A stretch of 42,916 nt of DNA from an uncultured Verrucomicrobia subdivision 3 bacterium (GTDB lineage Bacteria; Verrucomicrobiota; Verrucomicrobiia; Limisphaerales; UBA11358). Shown here in pieces: positions 7,779-38,800 of the stretch. Made by a program: the position numbers and the translations under genes. Position 1 is the stretch's first letter; each line of letters opens with the position of its first letter. The notes under the pieces are model-generated. The model was given only the letters and a program-made list of their open reading frames with translations. It ran no database searches and was not told the origin of the DNA. Location: positions 1-42,916 of the forward strand of contig CAIQWB010000091.1 in NCBI GenBank assembly GCA_903875465.1. Reading direction: 5' to 3'.

Positions 7779-10700
7779 ATGAGCACGCAAAACCAAAAAA
7801 TGCGCCGGGGAATGGCCACCTGTCTGTGTCTGGCGGCAGCGTTTGGCTGCCTGCTCCTGGGCCTGACCGCCTGCCGCGAGGGCCGTCCCGATACCTGGCC
7901 CGTTTCTCACCTGGAAATCCCCCCCGTTGCCACCAATGCTTACCAGGTTTACAAAAACTCCCTGGAGGCCAAACGGAACATCATCGAAAGTAAATGCGTC
8001 TTTATCGATGGCAAAGACATTCAAATGCCCCTGACCTCCGGCAATTTTGACCCCCAGGACAACCGCATCTACTCCTTCTACATCTGGGCCTACGACCAGG
8101 ACGCCCCCAAAGAATTCACACTGAACGACTTGCGCAAAGATGGCACTTTCAATGTCGATGTGATCGGGGTCAAGGCCACCATTACTGTGCCGGATTATGG
8201 AGCTGCCGGCGCCCCGCCCCAGCCACTCCTTGATCGCACCACGAATGGCTCCTCGCTCAACACCTTCCAAACGCTGCAGAGCCATAATCTCTTGCAGGTG
8301 CAGATTAACTCCAAGGATATCAGCGGCCCCTTCACCATCCTCGCCTGGTTCCCGGACAAATACCGCAACTGGCATCCCAGCAGCCAGAGCGGCGTGCCCC
8401 TTTCCATTACCAACAACCTGGCCAACGCGAATCCCTACGGTGAAAAACGGGAGGTAAAGGTCTACAACGGCGATTTGCGCACGCGCATTGATATCATTGA
8501 TGAGCGCGAGGCGGAGGCCTCGTTTGGCACGCTCTTTCCCAAATATTTTTACATCGGCCGCATTTACCTCCGCAACCGCCATCCGGACAAGCGCATGGTC
8601 GTCTACACCACCTCCATGCGGGCCAATATACTCCTTTACCGTCCCCCGGTGCCCGAAAAACCCGAGGTCATCCCCGCCACCACCCGGGGCAAAGCCACCG
8701 AGCCGATGGTCTTGTCCTCCCGAAAACAATATGCCCAGGCCGATATTACCGCTGAGCAAAGGACCAATCTCAATACCAATCTGTTCCTGCTCTCCCAGCA
8801 GAAGACCAACCAACTGGTGCTGCAACAAATGGTGGCCACGGCGTTTGCTGATTATGAACCAAATGGCGTCGCAAAAAGTCCCAATTCAAAGCGCGTGGAA
8901 ATCGCTTTTGGCATTGTGACCAATTCCCTGAATCGGATTAATCTGCTGAATGTCAGTAATTATTGGGCGAACACCAACGATGCCGTGCAGCGCATCCTGC
9001 TCGTTTGGTCCCGGCTGGATGAAAACATCACTGCCCTCAAACAAGAAGCCACCACCGCGAATGCCGATGCGTTTGGTCTGATCCGCACGGAGCTGGCCCT
9101 CCCTCCCGCCGGTGCCGATCAAGACCAGGTGGCCCGCATCAATCTCTCGCCGGTGCTGCTGCAACTGAGTGGCAATGGCAATGGCCACGATCTCCGGGGC
9201 AGTTACCTGGCCGCGACCAATGCCATTAACCAAGCCAATTTTACCGCACCAGAGAAGGCCCGCCTGCTCGCCCTGGTGGACCAGGTCTATGCCTTGCGGC
9301 TGCATGCCCAGGAGCGCGCAGCCCTGGCTCGGGCGCTGGCCGCCAACAATCCCTTGCTCCTGGCCGATTCCCAGGAGACCCCCATCGCCTTGTTGGATGA
9401 ATACAACCGCTCGGTTGCCAAAATTCAGGCCGCCGCCCTGGAGGATAATGGCGCCTCCCCCAATCCTTTTGCCAAAGCCCGCCCCGTCAATGTGAATGCC
9501 TCCCCCCGCCAGCTTGCCCTTTCCGACGACCAGGATGCCCAGGTGCAACTCGCCCGCATTGGCTATCTCTGGCATGAGAGCTACCGCCCCATGACCTTCC
9601 AGGCGGTCCTCAATTCCCTCATGTACACCGATGAGAACAGCTATTCCGCGCGCACCATTCGCCTGCTCCAGTCCGCCGCCACCGTGGCCGGCGGCATGGT
9701 GGGCTTGGGCGTGGCCGTCCACGAGCTGAATTCCGTCGGCTATCTGGAGGGTGTCACCCTGTTCTCCACCATCTTCGTGCCCGAACTTGGCAAACTGATC
9801 CTGGATGACGTCAACAAACACGTTCGCAACTTGGGCGAGATGGCCATGGACACCGTCGTGGTGGTGCCGCCGAATGACGTTGTGGATCATTATGTTTTCT
9901 TCCCCAAAGGCCCCATTTATAACTTCTCCGACGAGTTCAACGTCACCGATCCGGCCTACATCAAGAACATCGACAACGACGACGTGGGCATTGAGGCCAC
10001 CCTGATTGACCAGGGTGTGTCCGTGCAGGGCGGCAGCATGGATTCCGCCACCCTCGTGGATCGCGCGCTGAACGAGGGCGAGTCGACGATTTCCGCCGAA
10101 ATGCTCAAGCAGGCCGACTTGAAGGACCGCTTGCGCCAGTTGGAACTCGTCACCATCACGACCCAGATAACTACCTTGTTGCAGTCCCAGCCCCTGGGCT
10201 CCAACAACGTCAAATCAACGCAGCGGCTGCTCGTGGAAAAGCAAATCTGCAATTTGGTGAAATCCTTCACCGCCCAATTTGGGGAGGATTCCACGGGAAT
10301 TTTGGCCAGCCTGCTGGGCACCAATCAGGTTGATTGTGTTAATTCCCCGCCCAAGTTCCTAACTGGCGCCACCCCGCCGGTCGATGTGTTGCCCGGGGTG
10401 ATCAGTGTGGCGTTGCCCCTCCCGGTTGCGGACGAATTTAGCCTCGCCAAATTGTTCATTACCAGCACTTCCAGCAACCCCGCGTTTATCGATCCTACCA
10501 ATGTGGTCATTGCCCCGACTGCTACTAACGTTACTTTTACTGTGCTGGCCGCCACGAATGCCGCGCCGACCCAGGACGCCCCGGTCACCCTGACCTTTGT
10601 CGCCTCCAATATCATGAACTTGACCGCGTCCTTGCCCATCCATGCCAACGTCCACACGCCGCAATTCACCTTTCAACCCCAGCCCGGGTTGCCATCTTAT

Positions 10701-11060
10701 AAAGATGTGAACGGCGTCAATATTGACCTGGCCAACACCAATTATGTGACCTTTATGACGGTGGTCCTGCCGGTCTATGACAGTGATTTAAGCAATCTGA
10801 CCAACTGGTCCTGCCGGGTGGCTTCGCAGACCAGTCAGGCCTTTCAGACGAATGGGTGGAACATTACTGTGACCGCGCCACAATTGCAGCCCTTGGGGCA
10901 GACCGGCCAGCAACATCAACTGTGCATGGGCTTGACGATTGACCCCACCGTGGCCACAAGCACCGTACTGCCACTTCCGATAACTATGCTATGCGGAGGC
11001 CGGGTAATTGCCTCCACCAACCTGCAGGTCGTGGCGGTCCCACCCGTAAATAACCCCTAA
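7779..11060 (+). CDS. Large lipoprotein of unknown function (1093 aa), first gene of a putative envelope cassette
   Basis: The N-terminus has a type II signal peptide: positive n-region (QKMRRG), hydrophobic core and lipobox LTAC at about residues 29-32, so the protein should be lipid-anchored. Residues about 245-290 carry SFGTLFPKYFYIGRIYLRN, and about 678-725 carry VRNLGEMAMDTVVVVPP...YVFFPKGP; both blocks reappear, much closer together, in the lipoprotein at 13265-14980. The middle is mostly helical with Leu/Ala/Gln-rich stretches and a short hydrophobic Gly/Ala segment near 645 (SAATVAGGMVGLGVAV). Residues about 858-950 look like a cadherin/Ig-type beta domain (SSNPAFIDPTNVVI). Codon third positions favour C, whereas the 1186-3978 genes favour G. 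The membrane-protein gene starts 6 bp downstream, so co-transcription is very likely. No family was recognised. Confidence 0.85.
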   Translation: MSTQNQKMRRGMATCLCLAAAFGCLLLGLTACREGRPDTWPVSHLEIPPVATNAYQVYKNSLEAKRNIIESKCVFIDGKDIQMPLTSGNFDPQDNRIYSFYIWAYDQDAPKEFTLNDLRKDGTFNVDVIGVKATITVPDYGAAGAPPQPLLDRTTNGSSLNTFQTLQSHNLLQVQINSKDISGPFTILAWFPDKYRNWHPSSQSGVPLSITNNLANANPYGEKREVKVYNGDLRTRIDIIDEREAEASFGTLFPKYFYIGRIYLRNRHPDKRMVVYTTSMRANILLYRPPVPEKPEVIPATTRGKATEPMVLSSRKQYAQADITAEQRTNLNTNLFLLSQQKTNQLVLQQMVATAFADYEPNGVAKSPNSKRVEIAFGIVTNSLNRINLLNVSNYWANTNDAVQRILLVWSRLDENITALKQEATTANADAFGLIRTELALPPAGADQDQVARINLSPVLLQLSGNGNGHDLRGSYLAATNAINQANFTAPEKARLLALVDQVYALRLHAQERAALARALAANNPLLLADSQETPIALLDEYNRSVAKIQAAALEDNGASPNPFAKARPVNVNASPRQLALSDDQDAQVQLARIGYLWHESYRPMTFQAVLNSLMYTDENSYSARTIRLLQSAATVAGGMVGLGVAVHELNSVGYLEGVTLFSTIFVPELGKLILDDVNKHVRNLGEMAMDTVVVVPPNDVVDHYVFFPKGPIYNFSDEFNVTDPAYIKNIDNDDVGIEATLIDQGVSVQGGSMDSATLVDRALNEGESTISAEMLKQADLKDRLRQLELVTITTQITTLLQSQPLGSNNVKSTQRLLVEKQICNLVKSFTAQFGEDSTGILASLLGTNQVDCVNSPPKFLTGATPPVDVLPGVISVALPLPVADEFSLAKLFITSTSSNPAFIDPTNVVIAPTATNVTFTVLAATNAAPTQDAPVTLTFVASNIMNLTASLPIHANVHTPQFTFQPQPGLPSYKDVNGVNIDLANTNYVTFMTVVLPVYDSDLSNLTNWSCRVASQTSQAFQTNGWNITVTAPQLQPLGQTGQQHQLCMGLTIDPTVATSTVLPLPITMLCGGRVIASTNLQVVAVPPVNNP

Positions 11061-11066
11061 AACGCC

Positions 11067-13082
11067 ATGCCCAAACCTTCCTCCAATAGTTCACCCTCCT
11101 TGGGCACCACCATCAAGGAGTGGTCAAAGCGCAATTGGCTCCTGATTTTGGCGGGATGGTGGCTGATTGGGGCAGGCCTGGTATTGGGCTTCCTCGATGG
11201 GCTGGCCAATAATCTACCCAAGGCGGAATGGTACGTGCCTGCTTGGGTGGTGGTGCTTTACGTGGTGGTTTTCCTTGTGTTGGTCCTCGGCTGGCTGCTG
11301 AACACCGGGCGTCAGTATGGGTTTCTCACGGCTCTGATTACCTTCTACCTTGTTGGTGTGGTATGCCTGGCGTTTTGGACCATCAATAACAACCTGCCAT
11401 CGGATAATCTATCCATCCATTCTTTCAGCACTCTCACCACAACGCGGCAGGTCGATTACCTTGAACAGCTCACAATCAGCGAACTTACCGTGCTGCACCG
11501 GGCCCAGGACGCCATCACCCGGTGGCAGTCCCCGGGCGGCACAAGTCTCGTCACGGCTGTTGATCAAGCCGATATTAGCGCAGGCCTGGCCCTGGCCGCA
11601 CAGTTGACCAACAATTTGGTCACCGTGACCGTGGGCGCCTATTCGGGCACCAATACTGTCAAAACCCAATTGCTGACCAACAATTTTGCGATTTCCAATT
11701 GGTCCGGCAAAGCCGGCATGTCCACCACCCTTTTGCTCACTCAGTCATCGCTTACCATCACCACCAATTTCGCCGGACCGAAAATCCCCCCGCAAACCAC
11801 CATCAGCCAGTCGCCCGTGCTCCTCCTCAACGGGGATTTGCGACAGGTTACCGCCTCCCAATTGCGCAATGCCTCCAGCCAGTTGGGCATCGCCATCGGG
11901 ATGTTGGATGCCCGCCACAATTTCCTGGCCACCCACTTCTGGCCGCCTGGTTCCGATGTGATCAAAAACTTTTACGCCTCCCCAGGCATTCCGCCCCTGA
12001 CCCCGGTTGAAGTTCAGAATTTGCAGACGCAGGTTCAAAATAGTTTGCCCGTGGCCGGCCAGTTTAACCTGTTCCTGCTCTTCCTGGCCTTTGGCGCGCT
12101 GGGTTCCTGCGTCAAGTTACTGGCCTCCTTGGTGCGCTATCTGGGCATGGAGCGCTTCAAGCCCAGTTGGGCGGCCTATTACTTTCTTCATCCCCTCGTC
12201 GGTGCGCTGCTGGCGGTGATCTTTTATTTGATCTTCAAGAGCGGGATTAGTTCGGCCCTCTCCACCACGACTCCGAACCTGGATACCTTTGGTTATTGCG
12301 CCATCGCGGTGCTGGTCGGGATGTTTTCCGATGAGGCCACCGTCAAACTCGAGAAAATTGCCACCGGCCTCTTGGCCGATAACACCTCCAAGGATGATGA
12401 TGAAATTTCCTCCGACCTTTCCATTTTGGGTGTGCGTATCGCCGGCCAGCCGGATTTAACCGTCGCCAATATCACCGACCTCCCTGGTCTCGTGAAACTG
12501 TTTCAAGCCCAGACCCCGGGTAATGCTGCCTTAAAGATGTCCGAACTCAAAACCACCGCCGATTTGACGAAGTTTTTGCTCGGCGGCTTGTCGGGCACCA
12601 CCCAGCATCTGTTGTCGAACTATATTTCCGGCAATGACCAGCAACTGGCCAAAGCCCTCGTGGACGACTTGAATGGGTTAATCAAAGCCAACTTGCTCTA
12701 CCAAGCCCCCTTGTTCAATACCTTCCACACTCCTGAAGTGGACCAGGTCCATAACCTCGTTTATGGCACAACGGTCATGCCCATTAACGGCCCCGTGCTC
12801 ACGGGCATTTGGAAATTAAACCGCTGGCTGGTCGCCTGGGCCTATGCGGATTACCTCGCCTGCTGGGTGATTACTCTCCAGGGTAGTGGCTTGCGGGCCG
12901 ATACCATTATTTCCATGGACGGAAAATCCCTGCCGAACAATGAGACGGCCGCCTTCACCAACGGCCAGTTGCAATTTAAACTCAAAATCACCGACCACGA
13001 ACCCGGCACCGTGGCCCTCAGCCTCCAGAATCCGGCCCCGAATCCCGGCCAATCCAGTGAGTTTGATATCGGCCTGGCTTGA
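11067..13082 (+). CDS. Six-helix membrane protein with soluble insert and C-terminal Ig/TIG-like domain, unknown function (671 aa)
   Basis: Three hydrophobic segments lie at about residues 27-50, 58-78 and 86-108. A soluble region of about 220 residues follows. Three more segments are at about 332-356, 373-395 and 407-424. The second cluster has an unusual pattern: GALGSCVKLLASLVRYLGME, then HPLVGALLAVIFYLIFKSG, then AIAVLVGMFSDEATVKLEKIA. From memory, similar hypothetical proteins in several phyla pair this with an IPT/TIG-like end, but no named family is claimed. The last 70 residues (ITLQGSGLRADTIISMDG...VALSLQNPAP) fit a small TIG/Ig-like beta domain. Six bp separate it from the upstream lipoprotein gene. 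It probably forms the membrane part of an envelope assembly with the two lipoproteins; that is inference from gene order only. Confidence 0.85.
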   Translation: MPKPSSNSSPSLGTTIKEWSKRNWLLILAGWWLIGAGLVLGFLDGLANNLPKAEWYVPAWVVVLYVVVFLVLVLGWLLNTGRQYGFLTALITFYLVGVVCLAFWTINNNLPSDNLSIHSFSTLTTTRQVDYLEQLTISELTVLHRAQDAITRWQSPGGTSLVTAVDQADISAGLALAAQLTNNLVTVTVGAYSGTNTVKTQLLTNNFAISNWSGKAGMSTTLLLTQSSLTITTNFAGPKIPPQTTISQSPVLLLNGDLRQVTASQLRNASSQLGIAIGMLDARHNFLATHFWPPGSDVIKNFYASPGIPPLTPVEVQNLQTQVQNSLPVAGQFNLFLLFLAFGALGSCVKLLASLVRYLGMERFKPSWAAYYFLHPLVGALLAVIFYLIFKSGISSALSTTTPNLDTFGYCAIAVLVGMFSDEATVKLEKIATGLLADNTSKDDDEISSDLSILGVRIAGQPDLTVANITDLPGLVKLFQAQTPGNAALKMSELKTTADLTKFLLGGLSGTTQHLLSNYISGNDQQLAKALVDDLNGLIKANLLYQAPLFNTFHTPEVDQVHNLVYGTTVMPINGPVLTGIWKLNRWLVAWAYADYLACWVITLQGSGLRADTIISMDGKSLPNNETAAFTNGQLQFKLKITDHEPGTVALSLQNPAPNPGQSSEFDIGLA

Positions 13083-13136
13083 TCGGCCGCATTATGGGGC
13101 ATTGCCTCCGCGATTGGTCGCCATCTGTTAGGGTAA

Positions 13137-13157
13137 GGCTGGCGCGTTGCGCCGGCC
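13137..13157. repeat. Short palindrome between convergent genes
   Basis: GGCTGGCGC (13137-13145) pairs with GCGCCGGCC (13149-13157) around a GTT loop, with one G-T mismatch. It sits in the 182-bp gap between two convergent genes. There is no T-run, so it is more like the dispersed palindromes of the window than a canonical intrinsic terminator, but it could still slow transcription from both sides. The rest of the gap shows no gene. Confidence 0.5.
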
Positions 13158-13264
13158 CCGCCGCCGAGCGCAGCGTCAGGCGACGGAACGAACCACTGCC
13201 AGCGCCGCATCCACCCGTCCCGCACCGATTGGAACGAATGGCCCAAGCCACCCTTTCGCCGGGA

Positions 13265-14980
13265 TCAGGGAGTTTTCAGCGAATAAGTCAAACGATAACC
13301 CGTCGTGACGAGCACCGTATTGCTGCGCACCACCATGGAACTGACGGCATAATCGGCGGCTGGCCTCGCCGGGTTTGTCCCCCCGGCCGGGGCCGACCCG
13401 GTGGTCTCGCTGAGGCTGGCAATGCCATCCTGGTAAGAATAATAATTTACCGCCACCTTGCCACCCGTCATGCTGCCGATGACGGCGGCGGCATGTTTGG
13501 GTTGTGGGGCGGCCGGAGTGGCTGAATTGTTTGTATTACCACTCGCTTGGGCCTCACTGTTTGTGGCGGTTTTAAAGGGAATTTGCAAACTGTCCAAGGT
13601 CAGCGAAAACAACGGTTCGAAGCAATGCCGAGCCAGCGGTTTGGATTCGTTATTCAAATTCTGCCAGTCCATCGAACCATTTAAGTAAGGATCTTGCAGG
13701 ATGCTCGGCCAAGTGGTTTTGGCAAAGAACACACACACCTCATGGACACTGCCGCCGTCTTTGGCAATCGTCACGGTGTCCGCCATGGCGAAATTCGTGA
13801 TGTTCCGTAAAAAATCGCCATTCCCGCCCGCCAAGGTGTCTTTAACCAGGCTGTAAATGTTTTGTGCGCTCACGGGTGCCAGTGAAACGGGCACGCTGAA
13901 CATCGGCCCGGAGTTGGTGGTGTCGCTCGCGACCAGGATTCGACCCTGCGCCGTAACGGCTCCCAACTGGATAATTTGATCCTGTTCGGATGGGTTGCGC
14001 AGCGTCAGGCGCACCGGGTAGTAATGCGTGGCCACATAATCACCAAACGAGTCCCTGGATTGCGCATAATTAAGGGGATAGGCCGTGATGTTTTGCTCCT
14101 CAATTTGGTGGCTCAGCACGGTGTCCCGGTAAACTTGCGAAGTAAACAACGTAAACGTGCGGGATCGGGAGGCCAGCAACTTGCCCGCTGGTGAATGAAA
14201 GACCAGGCCATTCGTCGAACCCGCCAGCAGGGTCCGTCCCAGGGTCTGGCCGGTTTTAAATGCCTCGGCCAGACTCGCGGCGGATGGGCTGCCCCTATTG
14301 GTGCTTGGAATACTAATAAAGTCGCCCAAACTCTTGATTTGATCGGTGTTCCAACCCGCCAAAACCGCTTTGACACCCAGCAATTTCGCCAGGCCCGAAT
14401 CTAGACTGGCCGCGGTTCCGTTATTTGTGTCGAGTTGCGCGACCAGGCCGTTTAGCAGACCGGCCAGATCATACTGCCCATGCACCACCCCCAGATCCTT
14501 CGGCCGCTCGGCGATGGTGACATTGATCACCAATTGATCCTTTGGATTCAATCGGGCGGTGGCATTGGTGGTGAATTGAATGAAAACCAAAGCATCCGTC
14601 ACATGGGTGTTCGTCGTGTCCAAACTATAGTCCTCGCCCGGTTTCAAGGGTGCCACCCCGGCCACCGAAATTGAAATCGTGCTAGCCCCGTCCCGCAAAT
14701 TTTGTCCGTACAGGGGAATCCGCAATTCTTTCGTTGGCTCAAAAATCAAGATGGGACTGGCATCGCCGATACTATGAATCCAGGGCTGGCTGCCCAACCG
14801 GGGTTTGGGGGGACTGGCTTTGGAAATTTCATGGGTCGCTTGGGCCGCCACCTCGCCAGTCGGCGCCGGCTTGGTCGGGACGGCTGGTTGGGCCCAGTGG
14901 CATCCCGTCGCGATCAAACTGGTGTAAATGATGAGTCCGGCCATAAACGCCGGCCTGTACCTGCCCTGCAGTATACTCAT
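13265..14980 (-). CDS. Lipoprotein of unknown function (571 aa), related to the 1093-aa lipoprotein
   Basis: The start at 14980 gives a short n-region (MSILQGRYRP), a hydrophobic core and lipobox ATGC; GTAGG just upstream is a plausible ribosome site. The open frame extends 45 codons further upstream but those residues do not look like a signal peptide. Residues about 75-160 resemble a beta domain (LRIPLYGQNLRDGASTISIS). About 308-350 contain SFGDYVATHYYPVRLTLRN and about 387-415 contain FLRNITNFAMADTV...VCVFFAK. Both blocks match the 1093-aa lipoprotein in the same order. Between them this protein has about 45 residues where the larger one has about 400. It is convergent with the membrane-protein gene, so it has its own promoter. 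Exported and lipid-anchored; function unknown. Confidence 0.85.
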   Translation of the reverse strand: MSILQGRYRPAFMAGLIIYTSLIATGCHWAQPAVPTKPAPTGEVAAQATHEISKASPPKPRLGSQPWIHSIGDASPILIFEPTKELRIPLYGQNLRDGASTISISVAGVAPLKPGEDYSLDTTNTHVTDALVFIQFTTNATARLNPKDQLVINVTIAERPKDLGVVHGQYDLAGLLNGLVAQLDTNNGTAASLDSGLAKLLGVKAVLAGWNTDQIKSLGDFISIPSTNRGSPSAASLAEAFKTGQTLGRTLLAGSTNGLVFHSPAGKLLASRSRTFTLFTSQVYRDTVLSHQIEEQNITAYPLNYAQSRDSFGDYVATHYYPVRLTLRNPSEQDQIIQLGAVTAQGRILVASDTTNSGPMFSVPVSLAPVSAQNIYSLVKDTLAGGNGDFLRNITNFAMADTVTIAKDGGSVHEVCVFFAKTTWPSILQDPYLNGSMDWQNLNNESKPLARHCFEPLFSLTLDSLQIPFKTATNSEAQASGNTNNSATPAAPQPKHAAAVIGSMTGGKVAVNYYSYQDGIASLSETTGSAPAGGTNPARPAADYAVSSMVVRSNTVLVTTGYRLTYSLKTP

Positions 14981-15085
14981 GAAGCCTACTCTAAATAAAA
15001 TGTTCCGAATGTCAACCAGTAGTTTGGCTGCTGATCCGGCCGGTCGTCGCTGGCGGCCACTCCCCCCCGGCGGCCTCAAGGTGGG

Positions 15086-15102
15086 ACAGGCTTCCAGCCT
15101 GT
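15086..15102. repeat. Short palindrome ACAGGCT-TCC-AGCCTGT
   Basis: Perfect 7-bp arms with a 3-base loop. It lies in the about 200-bp gap upstream of the 571-aa lipoprotein gene and downstream of the 874-aa gene. It has the same style as the GCGGGC-TGAA-GCCCGC hairpins at the left end and probably belongs to the same class of dispersed palindromes. Nothing else was recognised in the gap. Confidence 0.6.
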
Positions 15103-15178
15103 AACCGGCGCGCACGCCTGTGCGAGCAATTCCGTACCCTGCCAGTTTCTCCCCGCCCGGACAGCCCCGCGCCCGCTC

Positions 15179-17803
15179 TCACCGCCCGAACTGCGACCGG
15201 TAAAACTGTCCCATCCCGCCCGCCCCCGCAGGCACCGGCACGCTGATCCGCCCATTCACCGGCGAGTTGGTGTTGATGGCCGTCCAATGCACCAAATCCG
15301 TGGAGCTTTGCAGGATATATTGCTGCCCGGCACGGCCGCTGAACCGGGCAAACCACTCCCCATTGACCAGCGCCAAAGTCCCCAGGGACGCCACACCCAA
15401 CTGCCCAAGCAACTGGCTCGGCAGCGCCTCATAGGCGGCATCCGTGATCCCTAACTTTTGCTGCAGCGGATCGCTGGTATTCAGAAACGGGGATTGCACA
15501 CTCAAAGCGGGCGTGGCCAGCACGTCTCCCACATCCAGGAATTGCCCGCCCGGCTCACCCGCCCGGGTGACTTGAATGGCTCCCGCCAGGGACGCCACCG
15601 CCGGCGAATTGGAGGAAAGCACGATGGGCGTGAGCAGGGGGGAGGAGTAATCGGACGCGCTATTGGTCATGGCATTCAAGCCATCAAAGGGAACCGTCCA
15701 GGCCGAGGCATCGGGATTGTTCACCGAAAAGAAGGCCGGGCTGGGGTTGGTATTGAGCAGGGCGCACAGCAGGCTGGCCAGGTGCCAGTCATTGACCGGA
15801 CTGGTGTGTTGCGCCTCCCAAACACTGGGGACGCCCGACCACACCCGCCAGGTGTTGGTGCCAATTTGGGTTTGGGAGCCGGAAAATGTGCTGGCAGGTT
15901 GTAATATATCCGTGGCTTTGAGATAGATACTTTGCCACGGCGTGCCGCGATGAATCTGGCCCAGCCAGTTGGGGTTCCAGGTCTGGTTGGTGGGAAAATT
16001 CCAGGAATCGGAACCCACCACCAAGGGGTCTTTGCAGGCGAGATTATAGGCATTGGTGTCTACGTTGGAAAGTTTCGCCATTTGAACGGACCGGCCCCAA
16101 GGCTGATACGTTGGGAAGATTTGCGGGAGGTTTAGTCCGGGCACGTTAATCACAGCGGGAACGAAATCGGACTTAAGCAAGCCAGTAAAGGCGGGATCTT
16201 GGTAATTCAAATCGGCGGTCAGATAATGCACGAATGGATCATTGGCCACCCAAAGATCGTCATCGGATAACGTTCGGGTGGGGGTAAAGGGAGTGAGCAC
16301 ACTCAAATCCGTGTTCGTATGGCGAATGCCAGCATAGCTCCACGTCGGCGTCCAGAAGCCCCTAAAATACGCGGTTTTTGCAGCGGTTGTGGGAAGGCTG
16401 GCGGAAGGGGGGGACCAGCTCCCGCCCGGCGGTGGATTAGCCAACCCGCTCGAAACTAACAGCTGATTGACCGTGCCCCATGCGGGAGACGGTCCCGGGC
16501 CGTTTCCAAAGATATTGGTACTCCACATATAGCGAGTTTGGGTTGAGTCAGGATAGTTCGGATCGCCCAGTTCCAAATTCAGATTCCGGTTACGGTTTGG
16601 ACCGGTGAATTGAACATAATCAATTACATGCTGGGCTCCCACCGGCCCATCCAGGACAAACGCTTGCAGCCAGTTGGTGGTGGCAAGGCCGAATTGAGGC
16701 AGGGGGGGCACGGGGGGATTACTCACATCATTTGTCTCAAACGGCGGGTTCAATGCGGACATGGGCACAAAACCATTATTTTGAAATTGGTAAGCCGATA
16801 GGGGTAAACCGGGAAAGGTCCAGTTAATGGTCAAGAAGGAGGCGGGCACCGGCGCGGGTGCGGCGGCCGGCGCAGAAGTCCAAGCCGATCCCGGCCACTG
16901 GGTGAGACTGGCGACATAATTGACGTTGGTAATCTGGCTGCGATAGAATCCCTGATCGTTGGTCAGCACCATGCTCAACGTATCCTGCAAAAATACTGTC
17001 AAGTTCCCCGACCCGGTGTAAGGCGCATCATAGGAATTCCACCAGGCCACCCCCAGGTGGTTCGTGATGCCGATCACAAAGAGCTCGTTGGTCCGATAGA
17101 GGCTGGTATTTGAGAGATCCGGCGTGGGACGGGTGACCTGCAACATGCGCGTGACTTGCACCGTATTCAAGAGGTTCAACGCATTGAAACCGGGAAACCC
17201 TTTGCGGGCGCCAACAATCCAGGGCACGCCGTAGATATTGAGGCGGTCCGGATCGATCGCCACGGCACCACTGGCAATGGTCGCAATATCCAATGGCGGC
17301 GCCAGCGCATTATCCCCCAGGCCACTCACCGAAGCCACCACTTGATAGCCGTTGATAAACACATTGCCCGTGGCAGGGTCACGGTAAAAGGTGGGGCGAT
17401 AAACGGCCGGGCAGGCGTTGGAGCTGGTGGCCTCGAAGAGATTGGCCGTGACCTGGAGCAGGCGCTGCACCGAAGGCGAGTAGACAAAAGCGCCATTGAT
17501 ATAAACCGGGAGGTTGCCCAGGCCGAAGGCGTTGGTGACGGTGGCGCCGAAGGCATTGGTGAAGCCGGCAAAATCCTGCACCCGCCAGTTTGCGGTTTCG
17601 GCCTGCAACACCCGGTCCGCCACATTCGTGAAAAAGCTGGCGGGCGTGGAGGTATCAAACGCCGGCGCGGCCCCGGCGGTGAGCGCCAGGCCGGCGAGGA
17701 ACCCACCCGGCAGGGTGCGCCGGGCCAGGGTCCAAAGCCACTTTGGCAAGGGCGGTCGGATCAGAACATTACATCCCCATGATCTGGTAGCCGCAATCCA
17801 CAT
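15179..17803 (-). CDS. Large exported protein of unknown function (about 874 aa) overlapping the end of fabI
   Basis: The chosen ATG at 17803 has CAGGTG just upstream and gives a long basic n-region, a hydrophobic core (GGFLAGLALTAGAAPA) and then FDTSTPASFF. The open frame continues upstream to 18097, but those residues are the out-of-frame shadow of fabI. The start overlaps fabI by 35 bp, implying translational coupling. The body has NIYGVPWIVGARKGFPGFN and TRMLQVTRPTPD at about residues 195-235. From memory this recalls large exported proteins linked to Verrucomicrobial pilin-like ('Verru_Chthon') cassettes, but this is unproven. The last 60 residues form the tail 'YILQSSTDLVHWT...FYRSQF' also seen, in variants, on other exported proteins here. 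Substrate and role unknown. Confidence 0.75.
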   Translation of the reverse strand: MWIAATRSWGCNVLIRPPLPKWLWTLARRTLPGGFLAGLALTAGAAPAFDTSTPASFFTNVADRVLQAETANWRVQDFAGFTNAFGATVTNAFGLGNLPVYINGAFVYSPSVQRLLQVTANLFEATSSNACPAVYRPTFYRDPATGNVFINGYQVVASVSGLGDNALAPPLDIATIASGAVAIDPDRLNIYGVPWIVGARKGFPGFNALNLLNTVQVTRMLQVTRPTPDLSNTSLYRTNELFVIGITNHLGVAWWNSYDAPYTGSGNLTVFLQDTLSMVLTNDQGFYRSQITNVNYVASLTQWPGSAWTSAPAAAPAPVPASFLTINWTFPGLPLSAYQFQNNGFVPMSALNPPFETNDVSNPPVPPLPQFGLATTNWLQAFVLDGPVGAQHVIDYVQFTGPNRNRNLNLELGDPNYPDSTQTRYMWSTNIFGNGPGPSPAWGTVNQLLVSSGLANPPPGGSWSPPSASLPTTAAKTAYFRGFWTPTWSYAGIRHTNTDLSVLTPFTPTRTLSDDDLWVANDPFVHYLTADLNYQDPAFTGLLKSDFVPAVINVPGLNLPQIFPTYQPWGRSVQMAKLSNVDTNAYNLACKDPLVVGSDSWNFPTNQTWNPNWLGQIHRGTPWQSIYLKATDILQPASTFSGSQTQIGTNTWRVWSGVPSVWEAQHTSPVNDWHLASLLCALLNTNPSPAFFSVNNPDASAWTVPFDGLNAMTNSASDYSSPLLTPIVLSSNSPAVASLAGAIQVTRAGEPGGQFLDVGDVLATPALSVQSPFLNTSDPLQQKLGITDAAYEALPSQLLGQLGVASLGTLALVNGEWFARFSGRAGQQYILQSSTDLVHWTAINTNSPVNGRISVPVPAGAGGMGQFYRSQFGR

Positions 17804-19572: not shown

Positions 19573-19670
19573 ATGGCCAGTTCAATGCCAAACTTCAAAG
19601 TACTGCGAATGATCCGCCAGCGCTGGCATGGCGTTGGGAGTTTATTTGCAGTTTGGAGTTTGATGATGGA
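19497..19670. repeat. Long imperfect inverted repeat with AT-rich arms
   Basis: The inner arms are CGCCATGGCCAG (19569-19580) and CTGGCATGGCG (19623-19633), complementary except for one bulged base. Outward, the left arm is rich in CCAAAATTCAAA-like words and the right arm in the complementary TTTGGAGTTTGATG-like words, so the pairing pattern continues imperfectly to about 19500 and 19670. The palindrome GCCAGCGCTGGC lies at 19616-19627. The structure resembles a miniature inverted-repeat element. It contains the start region of the next gene. Confidence 0.5.
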
Positions 19671-21369
19671 ATTTTCCGCGTCCGCGGCGGTTTTGCAACT
19701 GCAGATCACGCCCAAATGGAATGGGGAAACGGTGCAACCCGGTTCGCTCCGCTACCAGTCGTCCGCCGGGGAGAGTTTCTCGATTACCCGGGTGAGTTAT
19801 TTGCTCAGCGACTTCGCCCTGCAACGGAACGACGGTTCCTGGCTGGAACTCACCAACACGGCGGCCTGGCTGGACCTCGGGGAGAGCCGGGACACCCTGC
19901 GGCTGGAAAATGTGGTGGCGGGCGAGTATCGGGCCGTGCATTTCTCGCTCGGGCTGGGCACTCATCTAAACCATGCGGATGTGACCAAATTCCCCGCCCG
20001 CGATCCGATGAACCCGAACTTAAACGGGCTCCATTGGAGCTGGCAGGGTGGTTATATCTTCCTCGCGCTGGAGGGGCTGTGGCGGAATGCGGATGGGGCG
20101 CTGGATGGCTGGGCCTACCACCTGGCCCGCGATCCCAATTACACCCGGATTATTCTCGCCGCGCCGATGGTCATCACCAACCTGACCCGTTTGGAACTGG
20201 ATTTCGACCTGGCCACCCTGCTCAACGCGCCGCACCCGCTCGCCTTCGCCAAGGACGGGAGCTCCACCCATTCGCGACCGGGTGATCCGGTGGCGGCCGC
20301 GCTGGTGGCCAACCTGCCCGGGGCGTTTCGCATCCACCATGTCAGCGCGCTGACGGACGCGGAAATCCAGGCGATCAACCCCCGGCCGTTGTATCTGCCG
20401 AAAACGTATACCCCCTACCCGTTGCAAATGAGCGCGACGTTTCCCATCCCCGATTTGCCGCGGGACAACCCGCTCATCACGGAGCGCGTGGAACTGGGCC
20501 GGACCCTGTTCTTTGAAAAACAGCTCGCGAGCAACAACCGCCAGGCCTGCGCCGACTGCCACCAGGTGCATTATGCGATGACGGATCACCAGCCAGTCAG
20601 CATTGGGGCGGAGGGCCAGACCGGGACCCGCAACGCCATGCCGTTGTTTAATCTGGCGTGGAAAAACTCCTTCTTCTGGGATGGCCGTGCCGCCAGCCTG
20701 CGAGAACAGGCCCTGCAGCCGATTCAAAACCCTTTGGAGATGCACGAAACGCTCACCAACGTGGTGGCGAAACTGGCGGGCGCGAAAGCCGACTATGCGG
20801 TGGCCTTTACCCGGGCTTTTGGCACACCCGAAATCACCCCGGAAAAAATCGCCCTGGCCCTCGAACAATACGTGCTGACGCTAATCTCCTTCAATGCGAA
20901 GTTTGACCGGGTGCAGCGCGGCGAGGCAACCTTTACCGCCGCCGAGCAACGTGGTTTTGAATTGTTCGCCACGGAATACGATCCCCGGCGCGGGCAGCAC
21001 GGGGCGGATTGCTTTCACTGCCATGGCGGGCCGTTGTTCCAGAGCCAGGGCTTTGCCAACAACGGGCTGGATGACCGGTTTTCCGATCCCGGCCGGGCCC
21101 GGGTCACGGGCCGGACCAATGATCTGGGAAAATTTGCCGTCCCTTCATTGCGCAACATTGCGCTCACCGGTCCATATATGCACGACGGCCGCTTTACGAA
21201 TTTGGACCAAGTGATAGACCACTACGCGGGCGGGGTGAAACGCAGCCCGACCCTGGACCCGAACCTGGCCAAACATCCCGACGGCGGCCTGCCGTTGTCC
21301 CGGGCGGACAAGCAAGCCCTGGTGGCGTTTTTGGAGACGCTGACGGATGAAAAGTATTCAGGGGAATGA
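19573..21369 (+). CDS. MbnP-like domain fused to di-heme cytochrome c peroxidase (MauG/MbnH-like)
   Basis: 598 residues. A signal peptide (core SLFAVWSLMMEFSASAA) precedes an N-terminal domain, residues about 38-250, with MbnP-family features: SYLLSDFALQR, the AGEYRAVHFSLGLG strand, LNHAD, and the HWSWQGGYIFLALEG motif with tryptophans 155 and 157. The C-terminal domain, from about 290, is a di-heme peroxidase. It has CADCH (residues 326-330) and CFHCH (480-484), plus TGPYMHDGRF with methionine 536 as a possible axial ligand. In methanotrophs, separate MbnH oxidises a tryptophan of MbnP to kynurenine, creating a copper site. Here both would be one periplasmic polypeptide. Start codons at 19573, 19585 and 19609 are all possible; 19609 gives the neatest signal peptide. 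No ribosome site is obvious. Confidence 0.9.
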   Translation: MASSMPNFKVLRMIRQRWHGVGSLFAVWSLMMEFSASAAVLQLQITPKWNGETVQPGSLRYQSSAGESFSITRVSYLLSDFALQRNDGSWLELTNTAAWLDLGESRDTLRLENVVAGEYRAVHFSLGLGTHLNHADVTKFPARDPMNPNLNGLHWSWQGGYIFLALEGLWRNADGALDGWAYHLARDPNYTRIILAAPMVITNLTRLELDFDLATLLNAPHPLAFAKDGSSTHSRPGDPVAAALVANLPGAFRIHHVSALTDAEIQAINPRPLYLPKTYTPYPLQMSATFPIPDLPRDNPLITERVELGRTLFFEKQLASNNRQACADCHQVHYAMTDHQPVSIGAEGQTGTRNAMPLFNLAWKNSFFWDGRAASLREQALQPIQNPLEMHETLTNVVAKLAGAKADYAVAFTRAFGTPEITPEKIALALEQYVLTLISFNAKFDRVQRGEATFTAAEQRGFELFATEYDPRRGQHGADCFHCHGGPLFQSQGFANNGLDDRFSDPGRARVTGRTNDLGKFAVPSLRNIALTGPYMHDGRFTNLDQVIDHYAGGVKRSPTLDPNLAKHPDGGLPLSRADKQALVAFLETLTDEKYSGE

Positions 21370-32816: not shown

Positions 32817-35800
32817 TTAAGGCGCGGCGAGGCGGTAGAAGCGGGCGGGAACTGAGTTGGTGGCCGGGTCGCTGACGGGGGTGCTGGCCTGGGTGGCGAA
32901 AAAATTGGTCAGCACGGTCCAGTTGACCAGGTTCGTGGACGTATACACTGTGTACCAATAGCCCGGCTGGGTGGCAGCGGCCAGGACCCAAGACGGGCCG
33001 CCAGCCGGCGCGGCATAGGACAGGCCGAAGCCGCGGGCGGGGGGATTGGTGGCATTGGCCACGGTCAAGGGCGAGTGCAGGATGAATAGCTGGCCGGCAC
33101 TGGTGCGAAAGGCGAGGCGGTCCTGGCCGCAACGCAGCAGGCTGGCGGGGGTGCCGGTGACATTCAGAACGGCCTGGGTGCCGGTGGCCTGGAAAGTGCC
33201 CAGATCGAACGCCTGGATTTGCCAGTTGGTCCCGCTTTGGGTGAGGAAAAAGGCCCGCCCGGCGGAGCTGTCGATGGCTGGTGGACCGGCAACGCCAAAG
33301 TTGCCCAGAAGTGTCCCCGTGGCCGCATCCAGCACCTGCCCATTGGCAGAGTAAAGCCGGCCTTGGACCCATTGCAAACCGACGGGAACCGCCGTGAAAC
33401 CGGGGAGGCTGACCGTGGTGAAACCCGGGGGTCCCAAGGTCATGACCTCGACGCCATAGCTGCTGCCGGGGGACACCTGGCCAAACACGGTGGAGCCATC
33501 CAGGGAAAAGGCGAGGCCGCGGGCGGGACCGCCGGAGGTGGGCCGGGCCAGGCCGCCATCATAAGCCAGCACGGTGCTGGGGTATCCCGCCGCCATATTA
33601 TAGGAACTCAGCGAAGCCACGACGGTGTTGGGCTGGCCCGGTTGCACGAGCAGGTCCTGGGCATAATAAATGTCGTTGGTGGAAAATCCAAAGGCGAGGT
33701 CACCCGTGCCGGTGGCGAGGTTGAAGCGCTGGACACCCATGGCACCATCCAAGGCCACATAGAGGAAGGCACCATCCGCCGGGAGGGACATTTGGTCCGG
33801 TTCCGAGCCCGCCGCCAGGGCGCCGACGAGTGCCCCGGTGGCGGGATTAAAGGCGGCAATCAAGTTGCCGGTCAAGCTGTTGGAACCGGGGGTGGAGGCA
33901 TAAATCAGGTCCCGGGTGGCATCGTAGAGGAGCTGGCGCGTGTAGAGCGGAAGCACCAGCGGGGCGACGGGATTGGTGGTATAAATGGTCACGGCATTGA
34001 GGGCCGCGTTATTGCCCCAAAAGACATCGTTGAAATTGCCACTGGCCAGGGCGGTCACCGCGAGCGTCCCGGGCTGGGTGGCCCGGCCCGTGACGGTGAG
34101 TTGGGCGGTCGCGCCCGCGGCCAGGCTGCCGGCCAGCCAGGTCACCAAGCGGTTGGAATAGGTGGCGGTACCCGCAGCCGTGCCCAGGCTGACATTGGTC
34201 AGGGCGAGGGAAAATTTTTGGGTGACCACGACGGCCGACACCGGTCCAGGTCCGGCATTGGTGAGCTGGAGGGTAACGGTGAGCGGGTCATTGGTGGTGG
34301 CCGAGAGGGTGTTCAGGGACTGGGACAGCAGCACCTCGACCGGAGGGTTGGTGGGCACGAGCAGGCCCCGTAAAATCACCACTTGCGCATTGGTATTGAA
34401 GGCGGCGAGGCCATCCGGGCCCCAGCGAAGGAGTTTTTGCGGGGTATTGGTGAAGGTGGCGAGCGGCAAGGAACCCACCTCAATGCCCTGGCCAATGTCG
34501 AAGGCCCGGAGTGTCCAGCCGCCGGTGATGGGAGTCACAAAAAACACGCGACCACAGCCGGCATCCGGGGCCACCAGGGAATTGCTGGGAACGGGGAGCA
34601 AATCCACGCCGCGGGTGGTGGCGGGATTCACGACCATACCGCCATTGAAAAAGAGCCGGCCGCCCGAGGATTGGAGGTCGGTGGCGCTGGCTTGTTTGCC
34701 CGGCTGGGCGGTCAGCAGGCTTAAGCCGTTGGAACTGGTGTTCAACTGATAGAGCTTCACATTGCTATGCACGCCGTCGCACCCAAATAACTGGCCGGTG
34801 GTGTCCACAAAGGCAAAGAGGTCCTGAGTGCTCAATTCATTCGGCAATTCCACCCCGGCGAGGTGCAGGCTGGTTTTGCCGGCCGGTGAACGACGGATGG
34901 CGAGGAGATCGGAGTTGGTCGGACACACGGCCAGGCGCACCACGGTCTGGCTGCCGGGCACGGGAATGGCGCTCACGGGGGTCAAACCGGGCAGGGCCAG
35001 TTTCTGCACCACGCCCGCGCCATCCAGGGCCGCATACAAATACTGGCCGTCCGCAGACACGGCCAGGCGGCCGGGATTGGAGCCCACGGCAACCGGGGGA
35101 CTGACCGTGCCATGGATGGGGTCCAAGACCAGGACGGAATTGGCCAGCGCACCGGCATTGGTGCCCAGGCTGGCGTAAAGGACCGGACGGAGCGGGTCGG
35201 AGGCCAGATCTTTCACCGGCAAGGTCAGGGCGACGAGGCCGGAATTTTGGCTGGCGGGTTGAATCCACACCATGGCGGTAGCCTGATTGTTGGCAAAATT
35301 GGGATCGGTGGAGGAAGCATTGATCGTCATTTGATCAAAGGCAAGGCCGGCGGCGGGCAGAGCAAACGCCAGGGTAACGGAGGCGGTGGCCCCGGCGGCG
35401 AGGAGCGGAATGGCGCCGGTCACGGAAGTGGCATTGGTGGCGAGGCTGCCAGCGGAAGTGCTGGCCCCCGCCAGCACGGCGCCGGCGGGCAGGGTATTGC
35501 TCCAAGTGAGACTGGTGGCGGTGTTGGGACCGGCATTGGAGACAAGGAGCACGGCGGTGAGATTGCTTTGGGCAAAATAAGGGGGCGGGCTGAGGGCCAG
35601 GGAAACGGACAGGTCCGCCGGCGGATTGGTGGGGATGAGACTGCTATGAAACACGGCGAGCTGGTTGCTGCTGGTAAGGGCGGCAAAGCCGTCCACGTCC
35701 CAACGGAGGAAGCGGGTGATGGTGCCCAGGAGGCCAGGAATAGTCCGGCTGCCCGCCGGCAGCAAGGTGGGGCCATCATAGGCGCGCAGCACCCCGCCCG

Positions 35801-38800
35801 GGCTGAGCAAGAAAACGCGGCCGGAGCCGGCATCGCAGGCCACCTGCGAACCAGCCGGGATGCCGGCAATGGTGCCACGGAGGGTGTCGGTGAGGGGATT
35901 GATTACCGGGCCGGCCGAGGAATAAAGCGAGCCATTGTTCCACACCAGATTCAGGGGGGTGGAGGCGGGGAGCAGGCCGGTGTTTGAATCCAGCAGGGTG
36001 AGGCCGTTGGTGTCCACCGTATAGCGATTGAAAGCGGAGCCATTGTAAACGTAGAGGGGGGAGGGCTGGTCGCCGAATTCCAGGCTTAGCGCCGTGCTGT
36101 TAAAATTCGGCTCGGCGGCCAGTTGCGCGCCTTGGTTGAAGGCGGCCACCCAGGTGTTGTTGTTGGCGGTGGTTTTAATGCCGACGGCGACGACCGCGTT
36201 GCTGCCCGGGGCGACTTTGAGATCGTAGGCGGACACGCCCGGACTGGTGGGGTTGAGCAGAAAACGGCTGGTGACCGTCAGGGCCGGGAGGACGACGGTT
36301 GACACCCCGAAATCGGTGCGCGCGCAAAGCGTGGTGCCATCGCGCGAAAGCCCCACGCGGCCGGCATCCGAGCCCAGGGCCGCGGCGAATTGCACGGTTT
36401 GGGCCAGCGGATCCAGGGTGAGCAAACCGCCCGCCCAATTCGGCACACTGGCATTGGCGGTGACGAGGAACCGGCCCAGCGCGGGCGACCAGGCAAGGTC
36501 ATTGGCGGGCAAAGCGTAGAGCGTTGCGTTATCCAGACTGGCGGCTGGTCCGACCAGGGCCGTGGCCACGGCGGTGTTGTTGGAAAGGGCGACGTCAAAG
36601 GTGGAGGTGGTGGCGGCGGCCAGGAGGGTAAGCAAGCCGGGCTGGCTGGGTTGCAGCGTGCCGGTCAGGGTGGCCGTGGAGCCGGCGGAAAGGGCGGGCA
36701 ATGACCAAACCAGCGTCTGGCCAGTGGCGTTGGTGATCCAGGTGCCCGCTCCCGAGGATACGGCCAAGAGGGTGGCTCCGGCGGAAAGGGTATTGGTGAT
36801 CAGCACATTCGCCGCCGAAATAGTGCCTTGGTTGGCCACGGTCAGGGAAAACGTGGCCGGGCTGCCCGAGGACAGCGGGCCGGCGGGCGCGGTCAGGGTG
36901 AGGGCAAGGTCGGCAAACGTATCCGTGCGCACCAAGGGGGTGCGAATGATAAAGAGTTGACCGCCGGTGGTGGAAAAGGCCAGCCCGTCCGCCCCCCAGC
37001 GCAGGAGTTTGCCGGGCGTGCCCACGACATTGGAAATCATCAAGCTGCCCAGCCAGTTGCGGGTGGGGAGGTCGTAAGCGCGGAGCTGCCAGCCGTTATT
37101 TTGCGCAAGGCAAAAGACGCGGTGACTCGCAGGATCGGGCACAATGGCCGCGGTGGTTTGGGAGCCGGCGAACAGCCAGTCCACCTGAAAGGGATTGTCC
37201 TCCAGCATTTCCCCGCCGTTGTTGAACAGGTGACCGCCGCCACCATATTGCAGGTCCGTGCCGGCACCGTACAAGGTGGGAAACTGTTGGACGAACGTGA
37301 TGCCGCTGGCATCCAGGGAACAACGCCGGAGATCGCCGGCATTATACCCGAACAAGGTTCCCGAGTCGGTATCGAATACCGGCTCCCAGGAGCCGCCCAG
37401 GTCAGTGACGTTGGGGGCCAGCACCCCGTGCTGATACAAGCCCAGACCATAACCATATTCCAAGGAGCCGGCGTAAGCGTGGCGCACCGCCCAGGCGACG
37501 ACGGCATTGGGCTGGCCGGGAACCACGACGAGATTGCGGGCGTAATTGGTGTATTGCACGCCGTAAATGGACTCGCCGCCGACGGCAAACTGATAGGTGG
37601 CCGCCAGGGTCGGCAGGCTGAATTGCTGCACCATGCCGGTATCCGGCAGGGAAACATAGAGAAACTGGCCGTCGCCCGAGCGGGCGAGTTGTCCCGGGGC
37701 GGGGCTGAGCGGGACGAAGGCTTCCGTGAGGCCGGTGTAGGGATTAAAGAGGGCGAGGCCATTGGTTTGGGTCAGCCCGGGACCATTGGTTAACGAGAGC
37801 ACGAAGCGATCGCGGACGGGATCATAGAGCATGTCCTGCACGGCATAGTTTACGGGAAACGTGGTGAACCCCTGCTGGGGCAACTGCACGAAGAGGGGGA
37901 GCGCGACCAGATTATTCGTGAAGACGGGGTCCGCCTCAAACCCCAGCGCCCAGGCCAGGTTGGTCTGCCAGCCGCCGGCATTGAATTGCACGGTCATTTG
38001 CAAGGTGGCGTTGGAACCCGCCGCGAGGCCGGACACGCTCCAGACGAAGGCCGACGGCGTGAGCCGGACGGTGCCGGAGGAGGGCTGGCTCTGGATCACC
38101 ACGGCGGTGGCGGGCAAGGCATTGGTCACCTGGACCACCGAAGCGGTGCCCGGACCGGCATTGGACAGGATCAGGGAAAAGACATAATTCGACCCGGCAA
38201 CTGGTGCCGGGGCGGGGGCGGACACGGCCAGCGCGAGATCGGCGGGCGGGCGGGGCGGCTGGGTGGCCTCGGGGTGGATGAAGCCCAGGAGGTTGCCCTG
38301 CACATAGGCCAGACAATTCGTATCGCAACGCACGAGGCGCGCTGGCGCGCCGCCGGCGCCGGGCAGCGTCCATTGAAACAAAAGTTGATACAAATCCCGG
38401 TCATACATCTTCAAGGCAAAGGGGGCGGACCCGAAAGTAAGATTGCCACCGATATAATAAGCGCGGCGAAATACCGGATCCACTTCGGGGATGGCTCGAT
38501 AATACGATTGATCCAAAACCCCCGGATAAACACCGACCGCCGACAAGTTGGTGCTGGAGTAAACCGTGCCGCGATCATCGTAAAGCAAGCCGCCGCGATA
38601 ACGAACTGCGGTGCCGCCAAAATTAGCACTGGTGGCCAGCACGGTTCCGAGAGCCGCATTGCCGGTGGCCAGGGAAGGTGACAGGGCGATGGCCGAGCCG
38701 GTTTCCAGGCTCTCCACCAGCCACCCGCCGGTGGCCGTCAAGGCGGGCAGCGGGACCGGCACGCCGCTGTCGTAGCGATAGAGGCCGTCAATCGTCGTGT

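Follow-up and report, generated by a model that had tools for sequence, protein, structure and literature searches.

The DNA analysed here (the window) is the whole 42,916-nucleotide contig CAIQWB010000091.1 (C91) of a 5.3 Mb genome (GCA_903875465.1) in the order Limisphaerales, and three of its genes, between positions 7779 and 14980, are the subject of this study; they encode a large lipoprotein (P0001), a membrane protein (P0002) and a small lipoprotein (P0003). The reading that seems to us, on balance, the probable one is that P0001 and P0002 form a rare two-gene envelope unit, that P0003 is a related lipoprotein inherited separately, and that the tail of P0002 is broken by a module found in frame in many other proteins across the order. 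The first-pass annotation had proposed the three genes as one undescribed envelope cassette, a finding which is partly right and moderately interesting, and the module, which lies inside its middle gene, is the more unusual result.

The module was discovered through residues ~460–600 of P0002, which weakly match the interior of ClC channels, an MMPL protein, SDF and SSF symporters, TPR-containing membrane proteins and others. A profile built from eight copies, the window copy excluded, identifies the one in P0002 with an E-value of 1.1e-13 (48.9 bits, residues 494–555); the module there takes up 12444–12860 on the plus strand, with outer limits set by eye. The full module is ~115 residues (~345 bp) long and is present across the order, in at least 225 of 313 genomes and at least 101 of 118 genera, one genome having at least 13 copies; the window genome has two, the P0002 copy and one within an MMPL protein. 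That a copy is also seen in a genome consisting of a single contig (G132) speaks against an artefact of assembly. Neither Pfam nor NCBIfam contains a match to the module, searches against plasmids and phages gave none, a sequence comparison with the PDB gave nothing that was taken as real (best E 1.4), and no published description was found in the literature on in-frame elements, on the order or on inserted domains.

From 40 further regions together with the loci fetched earlier, 75 distinct copies were gathered and their flanks form 38 clusters, which is an upper bound on the number of unrelated hosts as it counts, for example, two MFS, two MMPL and two BPD_transp_2 clusters and two within a single giant frame. 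This frame, 17972 amino acids long on contig C21 of genome G076, carries at least two copies, and a 683-residue open frame in genome G104 (L168) also has two, one of them weak (35.6 bits); the copy at locus L031 is weak as well (31.9 bits). When 17 hosts were scanned with Pfam, 16 had matches (the exception being L150) and 13 kinds of domain were seen: Voltage_CLC, MMPL, SDF, SSF, TPR, Cu-oxidase, BPD_transp_2, MurJ, Virul_fac_BrkB, MlaD, ABC_membrane, PTS_EIIC and MFS_1. Four hosts, L024 (ClC), L153 (MurJ), L171 (BrkB) and L170 (BPD_transp_2), have their domain matched in two stretches, the reported stretch being bounded at most 20 residues from the module, and the module therefore appears to interrupt these domains, while in others, for instance the SSF, TPR, MlaD and Cu-oxidase hosts, it is situated outside the best matched stretch. 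Rather than being specific to the P0001/P0002 unit, the module would have inserted itself into a wide range of unrelated proteins in the order, most of them membrane or exported ones.

To look for empty sites, the TPR-containing membrane protein of genome G032, which we take to be DUF2723-like, was sought across its genus and a match was found in 48 of 49 genomes. Of these host loci 30 were fetched, three of them containing the module and 27 showing an empty site (with an ambiguous base at the site in one, L111). A second case is a reciprocal pair of MMPL homologues, where the protein of the window genome is filled at a position that is empty in genome G215 and the G215 protein is filled at another site which is empty in the window genome; the motif by which sites were located missed two other loci fetched for this comparison. 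Clean empty sites together with reciprocal ones point to independent in-frame insertions, and the empty sites show that the module enters its hosts by in-frame insertion.

Comparing 71 copies base by base gave identities of 0.497, 0.614 and 0.353 at codon positions 1, 2 and 3 (chance 0.27–0.30), and since the first two positions are more alike than the third, the module is maintained as protein. After insertion it would thus be kept as protein sequence, and it is probably tolerated through landing in loops. Among the matches listed, every module match lies in an open frame, although copies that have decayed would escape a protein profile. An in-frame position within conserved genes is also what would be expected of an element that removes itself, either an intein or an RNA intron. 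Inteins are recognised by a conserved N-terminal nucleophile and a C-terminal Asn followed by Cys, Ser or Thr; inspection of the module borders, made without an intein profile, revealed no invariant nucleophile and no terminal Asn, the protein conservation extends right up to the borders, and no stops occur in the copies among the matches listed, all of which makes a self-removing element highly improbable.

The relationships between copies suggest when the insertions took place. Copies in the same host cluster but in different genomes have a mean identity of 0.497 (124 pairs), and a tree of 74 copies, which has few columns and many open forks, follows the host with 16 changes compared to 31–38 in 200 shuffles. 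The same tree has no grouping by genome (33 changes against 30–37 in shuffles), and the combination indicates insertions that are mostly old and were then inherited with the host.

Several observations speak against regarding the module as something that spreads, the missing genome grouping being the first. Pairs from the same genome in different hosts have a mean identity of 0.358 (41 pairs) as compared to 0.371 for pairs differing in both, so copies sharing a genome are as unlike as any others and, with the tree, give no sign of recent movement; a recent burst thus found no support. Inspection of 63 copies, aligned at their ends, showed no terminal repeat, and in 10 of those copies no palindrome was found, the only self-complementary matches being 7–19 bases long, so that a palindromic element found no support either. 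Filled and empty hosts are at most 68% identical and hence too far apart for judging target duplications, no transposase was linked to the module though no search was aimed at transposases, and the copy in P0002 is divergent, being matched over 62 residues only.

These points leave room for a different explanation, where the module is an ordinary accessory domain, binding mainly outside the cytoplasm, which selection has recruited repeatedly and which never spread as an element. Its maintenance as protein fits this, as does the location of the hosts: a hydrophobic helix is predicted in 30 of the 38 clusters, and the side calls for the module lean outwards, with 11 out, three in and 24 undecided. 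The side estimate is crude, however, and as it missed a helix in P0002, the P0002 call (one of the 11) is unreliable and was not used. What an accessory domain accounts for less readily is that the hosts with Pfam matches have no function in common, that two different sites are used within one host family (MMPL), that well-defined single domains (ClC, MurJ, BrkB) are interrupted and that eight of the 38 clusters, such as that of L150, lack a helix. We regard repeated recruitment as a real possibility, if a doubtful one.

P0002, the host in the window, is a protein of 671 amino acids (11067–13082, plus strand) delimited by its open frame and hydropathy, with an orthologue of 36% identity in G111, a Limisphaerales metagenome-assembled genome that is 82% complete. 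The earlier description of three helices, a soluble insert, further helices and a TIG-like end is confirmed: by hydropathy, three hydrophobic helices are followed by a 223-residue soluble stretch (11376–12044, plus strand, between helices 3 and 4), further hydrophobic helices and the C-terminal domain, and a structure model of low confidence (pLDDT 38.6, the predicted local distance difference test score) has a similar 3+3 helix pattern. Lysine and arginine counts, read by the positive-inside rule, suggest with some uncertainty that the N-terminus is in, the soluble stretch periplasmic and the C-terminal part cytoplasmic. P0002 would then probably be anchored in the inner membrane with its soluble stretch towards the periplasm, where it could meet the lipid-anchored P0001. 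The N-terminal helices have matches in genomes G051 and G036, and a PAP2_3 match of P0002 (E 0.14) was set aside.

The C-terminal domain (12867–13064, plus strand) resembles NF058597 (CoaZ_rpt_PGGG), a choice-of-anchor Z repeating domain that by eye is TIG-like and is shared by the ends of P0002, its orthologue and a relative in genome G082. The P0002 domain differs in falling below the 30-bit cut-off (E 4.2e-5, 23.5 bits) and in having its start interrupted by the module, while the orthologue (30.3 bits) and the G082 relative (53.5 bits) exceed it. The tail of P0002 may be described as a putative TIG-like domain interrupted by the ~115-residue module; in the G082 relative (L049) the module profile that detects the P0002 copy did not find the module.

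The second helix group of P0002 (12051–12389, plus strand) recurs in five more genomes (G082, G184, G098, G033 and G243), and by hydropathy this part of P0002 has two clear segments, against three in the proteins of G111 and G082. It weakly resembles YLATT (PF20303, YEATS-Like-Associating Three TM), a three-helix membrane group, and the family aligns nearly end to end with the relatives in G184 (15.5 bits) and G111 (14.1 bits). These scores are far below the cut-off of 26.7 and no better than those of unrelated places in the same genomes (18.4 and 15.1 bits), eight of 14 control genomes have weak matches at the same E limit with none over the cut-off, and the helix groups of the window genome, G082, G033, G243 and G098 are unmatched, leaving none of the seven genomes over the cut-off. 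A comparison of the helix group with the PDB by sequence gave nothing taken as real (best E 0.12), and a P0002-type second helix group does not appear in the available portion of PMC7159879. The first-pass annotation had considered the membrane protein novel, which has to be modified: its second helix group occurs in five further genomes, its tail is TIG-like and the module within it is widespread.

The large lipoprotein P0001 (1093 amino acids, 7779–11060, plus strand) consists of a signal peptide with an LTAC lipobox, a core split by 415 residues and a C-terminal part of unknown fold. When it was used as query at E up to 0.01, nine of 245 genomes of the order gave matches and in two of them, the window genome and G111, it is present at full length; the G111 protein is its one orthologue (51–55% identity). 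The partial matches are two core-family proteins (G098 and G187) and five weak ones to the C-terminal part (G073, G147, G157, G164 and G184, E 0.0026–0.009). In both genomes that have the two genes, P0002 lies directly behind P0001 on the same strand with a gap of 6 bases. The small lipoprotein gene, P0003 (571 amino acids, 13265–14980, minus strand), stands beside them in the window genome alone, convergent with the pair, and no match to it was found in G111, a genome 82% complete as stated. Nor was the membrane partner with its helix group found at any of seven other family loci (L045–L048, L051, L054 and L067), several of which are cut off at a contig edge or short, with L046 spanning only 3.5 kb.

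With the pair adjacent in both genomes and no partner at the other loci, P0001 and P0002 appear from their sequences to be a conserved pair, on evidence that is at present thin, and P0003 an independent relative. The region would then hold a rare envelope unit, made up of a large lipoprotein and an inner-membrane protein, and beside it a second lipoprotein, related to the first but inherited apart from the unit. In the first-pass annotation all three genes were instead a candidate cassette encoding one envelope complex, in which a membrane partner is joined by two lipid-anchored subunits related to each other. Their adjacency in the window and the core common to both lipoproteins are what one would expect from such a complex, but in G111, where alone the pair was found again, no match to the small lipoprotein was seen, the membrane protein is missing at the seven other loci and the small gene is oriented towards the pair, so that neither the cassette nor P0003 as a third subunit was borne out and a three-gene complex now seems improbable. 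Counting against the pair as a unit are its occurrence in two genomes alone and the lack, in the window, of the conflict-type neighbours that surround relatives of its helix group.

These neighbours raise the question whether the pair could serve a conflict (defence) system as its effector or sensor in the membrane, like other proteins with the same helix group. All five relatives, none of them orthologous to P0002, have a caspase, TIR/STAND, E2-E1-JAB or methylase gene within two genes: a caspase-domain gene is located beside the one in G082 (L049), a TIR-AAA_35 gene beside and AAA_35-WD40 genes near the one in G184 (L050), an E2-ThiF-JAB gene beside the one in G098 (L055) and a DUF1156 methylase one gene away in G033 and G243 (L052 and L053), which are congeners with the same arrangement. 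A PHO4 match at L052 (E 3.7e-6) was below its cut-off and was set aside. In G111 a WD40-TIR gene (L044, 2947–6051, minus strand), with a GTPase-like P-loop recognised by eye, lies 901 bases behind the pair and shares its strand, and an FRG-domain gene is found nearby (14496–15446). Against this, PADLOC found nothing in P0001, P0002 or P0003, YLATT membership is under the cut-off, and the annotated neighbours in the window include GH16, GH3 and an enoyl-ACP reductase family gene, with no NTPase, TIR, caspase or other defence gene beside the unit in a scan made with Pfam only. A role in conflict is a live alternative for this pair but, in our view, a rather unlikely one.

Both outer proteins carry a lipobox, as had been claimed. 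Direct reading gives LTAC in P0001 and ATGC in P0003, the latter with an atypical Ala at position -3, and by eye a lipobox Cys follows a hydrophobic stretch in all seven members where this part is present (P0001, P0003, P0004, the G111 protein, whose start is uncertain, both G204 copies and the G539 protein, which shares the atypical -3 position with P0003). The length of 571 amino acids for P0003 is counted from an ATG, and a GTG start would give 616. The claim that neither lipoprotein belongs to a named family was also upheld: no family was found for P0001 or P0003 in Pfam, NCBIfam or PADLOC, ten core segments run against Pfam at E up to 10 gave none (best E 0.086), and the core compared with the PDB by sequence gave nothing taken as real (best E 0.47).

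Two motif blocks occur in the same order in both proteins, as the first-pass annotation had noticed and as the sequences and alignments confirm. In P0001 block one (S248–N266) is at 8520–8576 and a helical stretch together with block two at 9561–10013 (block two proper 9822–9908), both on the plus strand; in P0003 block one (S311–N329) is at 13994–14050 and block two (L391–K421) at 13718–13810, on the minus strand. The spacing of about 400 residues given for the large protein is close to the 415 found, while the 45 given for the small one is wrong, the gap from N329 to L391 being 61 residues. This difference arises because P0003 has no helical stretch before block two and P0001 has, in addition to that stretch, a further large insert.

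When compared directly, P0001 and P0003 show no significant likeness (BLASTP E 0.32). A profile-profile comparison with hhalign, of the P0003 family against the large-protein pair, aligned block two in register (E 1.5e-5, probability 79.5), and so did profile comparisons with a 386-residue lipoprotein of genome G024 that carries both blocks. The least circular test was a profile made from five outside relatives of P0003 and scored against shuffled sequences, which gave 30.6 bits on P0001 at residues 646–715, where block two lies (400 shuffles reached 3.5 at best), and 122.4 bits (residues 267–382) and 35.7 bits (389–469) on P0003 (best of 200 shuffles 0.2). A profile of block one only gave 6.8 bits on P0001 (best of 500 shuffles 4.3), 11.9 on its G111 orthologue (best of 500 shuffles 5.0), 93.1 on P0003 and 1.7 on the G024 protein, the last not above its shuffles. 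In the opposite direction the large-pair profile reaches five P0003 relatives at block two with 5.3–15.9 bits (best of 1000 shuffles 2.0), and it is unfavourable to a common core that on P0003 itself it misses block two, giving just -2.4 bits at block one. As relatives bridge two proteins whose direct comparison is not significant, block two with its preceding helical stretch is, by sequence comparison, homologous between the lipoprotein families, and block one is likely homologous on the same kind of evidence. The shared core looks beta-rich by eye and defines an unnamed family, of modest novelty when taken alone; a structure prediction of the P0003 core, made with four short rows, had a pLDDT of 36.0 and gave no usable model.

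The core is thinly distributed. Relatives of the small lipoprotein were found in G204 (two), G129 (one), G539 (one) and G187, where P0003 matches block one (E 7.5e-14) and P0001 matches near block two (E 0.009) in a single open frame. The core profile found seven of 320 genomes of the order, of which six had been used in building it and the seventh, G129, was already known, and two of 288 genomes drawn from the phylum, i.e. the window's own and G539. A wider search of genome contigs with P0003 found no relatives, and a second scan of them (A2), weak since only two short N-terminal patterns were used, returned the G111 contig PLJQ01000241.1 alone. Four scans of viral contigs found no relatives, nor did plasmids searched with P0001 or phages searched with P0003. 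The N-terminal domain of P0003 (14501–14794, minus strand) was labelled TIG-like by eye and aligns with L046 and L047, and it has no match in the Pfam or NCBIfam libraries. Elsewhere in the window, 19573–21369 (plus strand) encodes one protein in which an MbnP domain precedes a di-haem peroxidase (CCP_MauG) domain, and 32817–39626 (minus strand) is an open frame of 2269 amino acids.

If one peptide does enter many unrelated membrane proteins in frame, some of them probably essential, this would be a route to new bacterial domain architectures, the sites would make up a natural record of permissive positions in transporters, and the question would be raised of what moves it. For annotation it serves as a warning, as a common module match does not imply a common function of the hosts.

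The closest parallel is to the Rickettsia-specific palindromic elements (RPEs), which in the available parts of the source are small sequences fused in frame in unrelated conserved genes, with 19 reading frames and intergenic copies too, and where a guanylate kinase carrying an RPE stays active with a changed substrate affinity (PMC2229807). The module likewise lies in frame inside unrelated protein genes. It differs in length (~345 bp against 105–146 bp), in having no detected palindrome or terminal repeats where RPEs, as described there, have stem-loops and terminal inverted repeats, in being conserved as protein and in belonging to another phylum. Among inserted domains, BEAN and HABAS are lineage-specific insertional domains of RNA polymerase (PMC11515920, in the portion available), which like the module have been inserted independently in different lineages; as given there they are confined to RNA polymerase subunits, whereas the hosts of the module bear 13 kinds of Pfam domain. 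We see about an even chance that the module is a protein-coding element of ~345 bp which has spread in frame across the whole order, interrupting single domains of flippases, channels and permeases and being kept as a folded domain where it lands; it would then be a counterpart of the Rickettsia elements that is larger, selected as protein and free of palindromes, and that moves in a way of its own.

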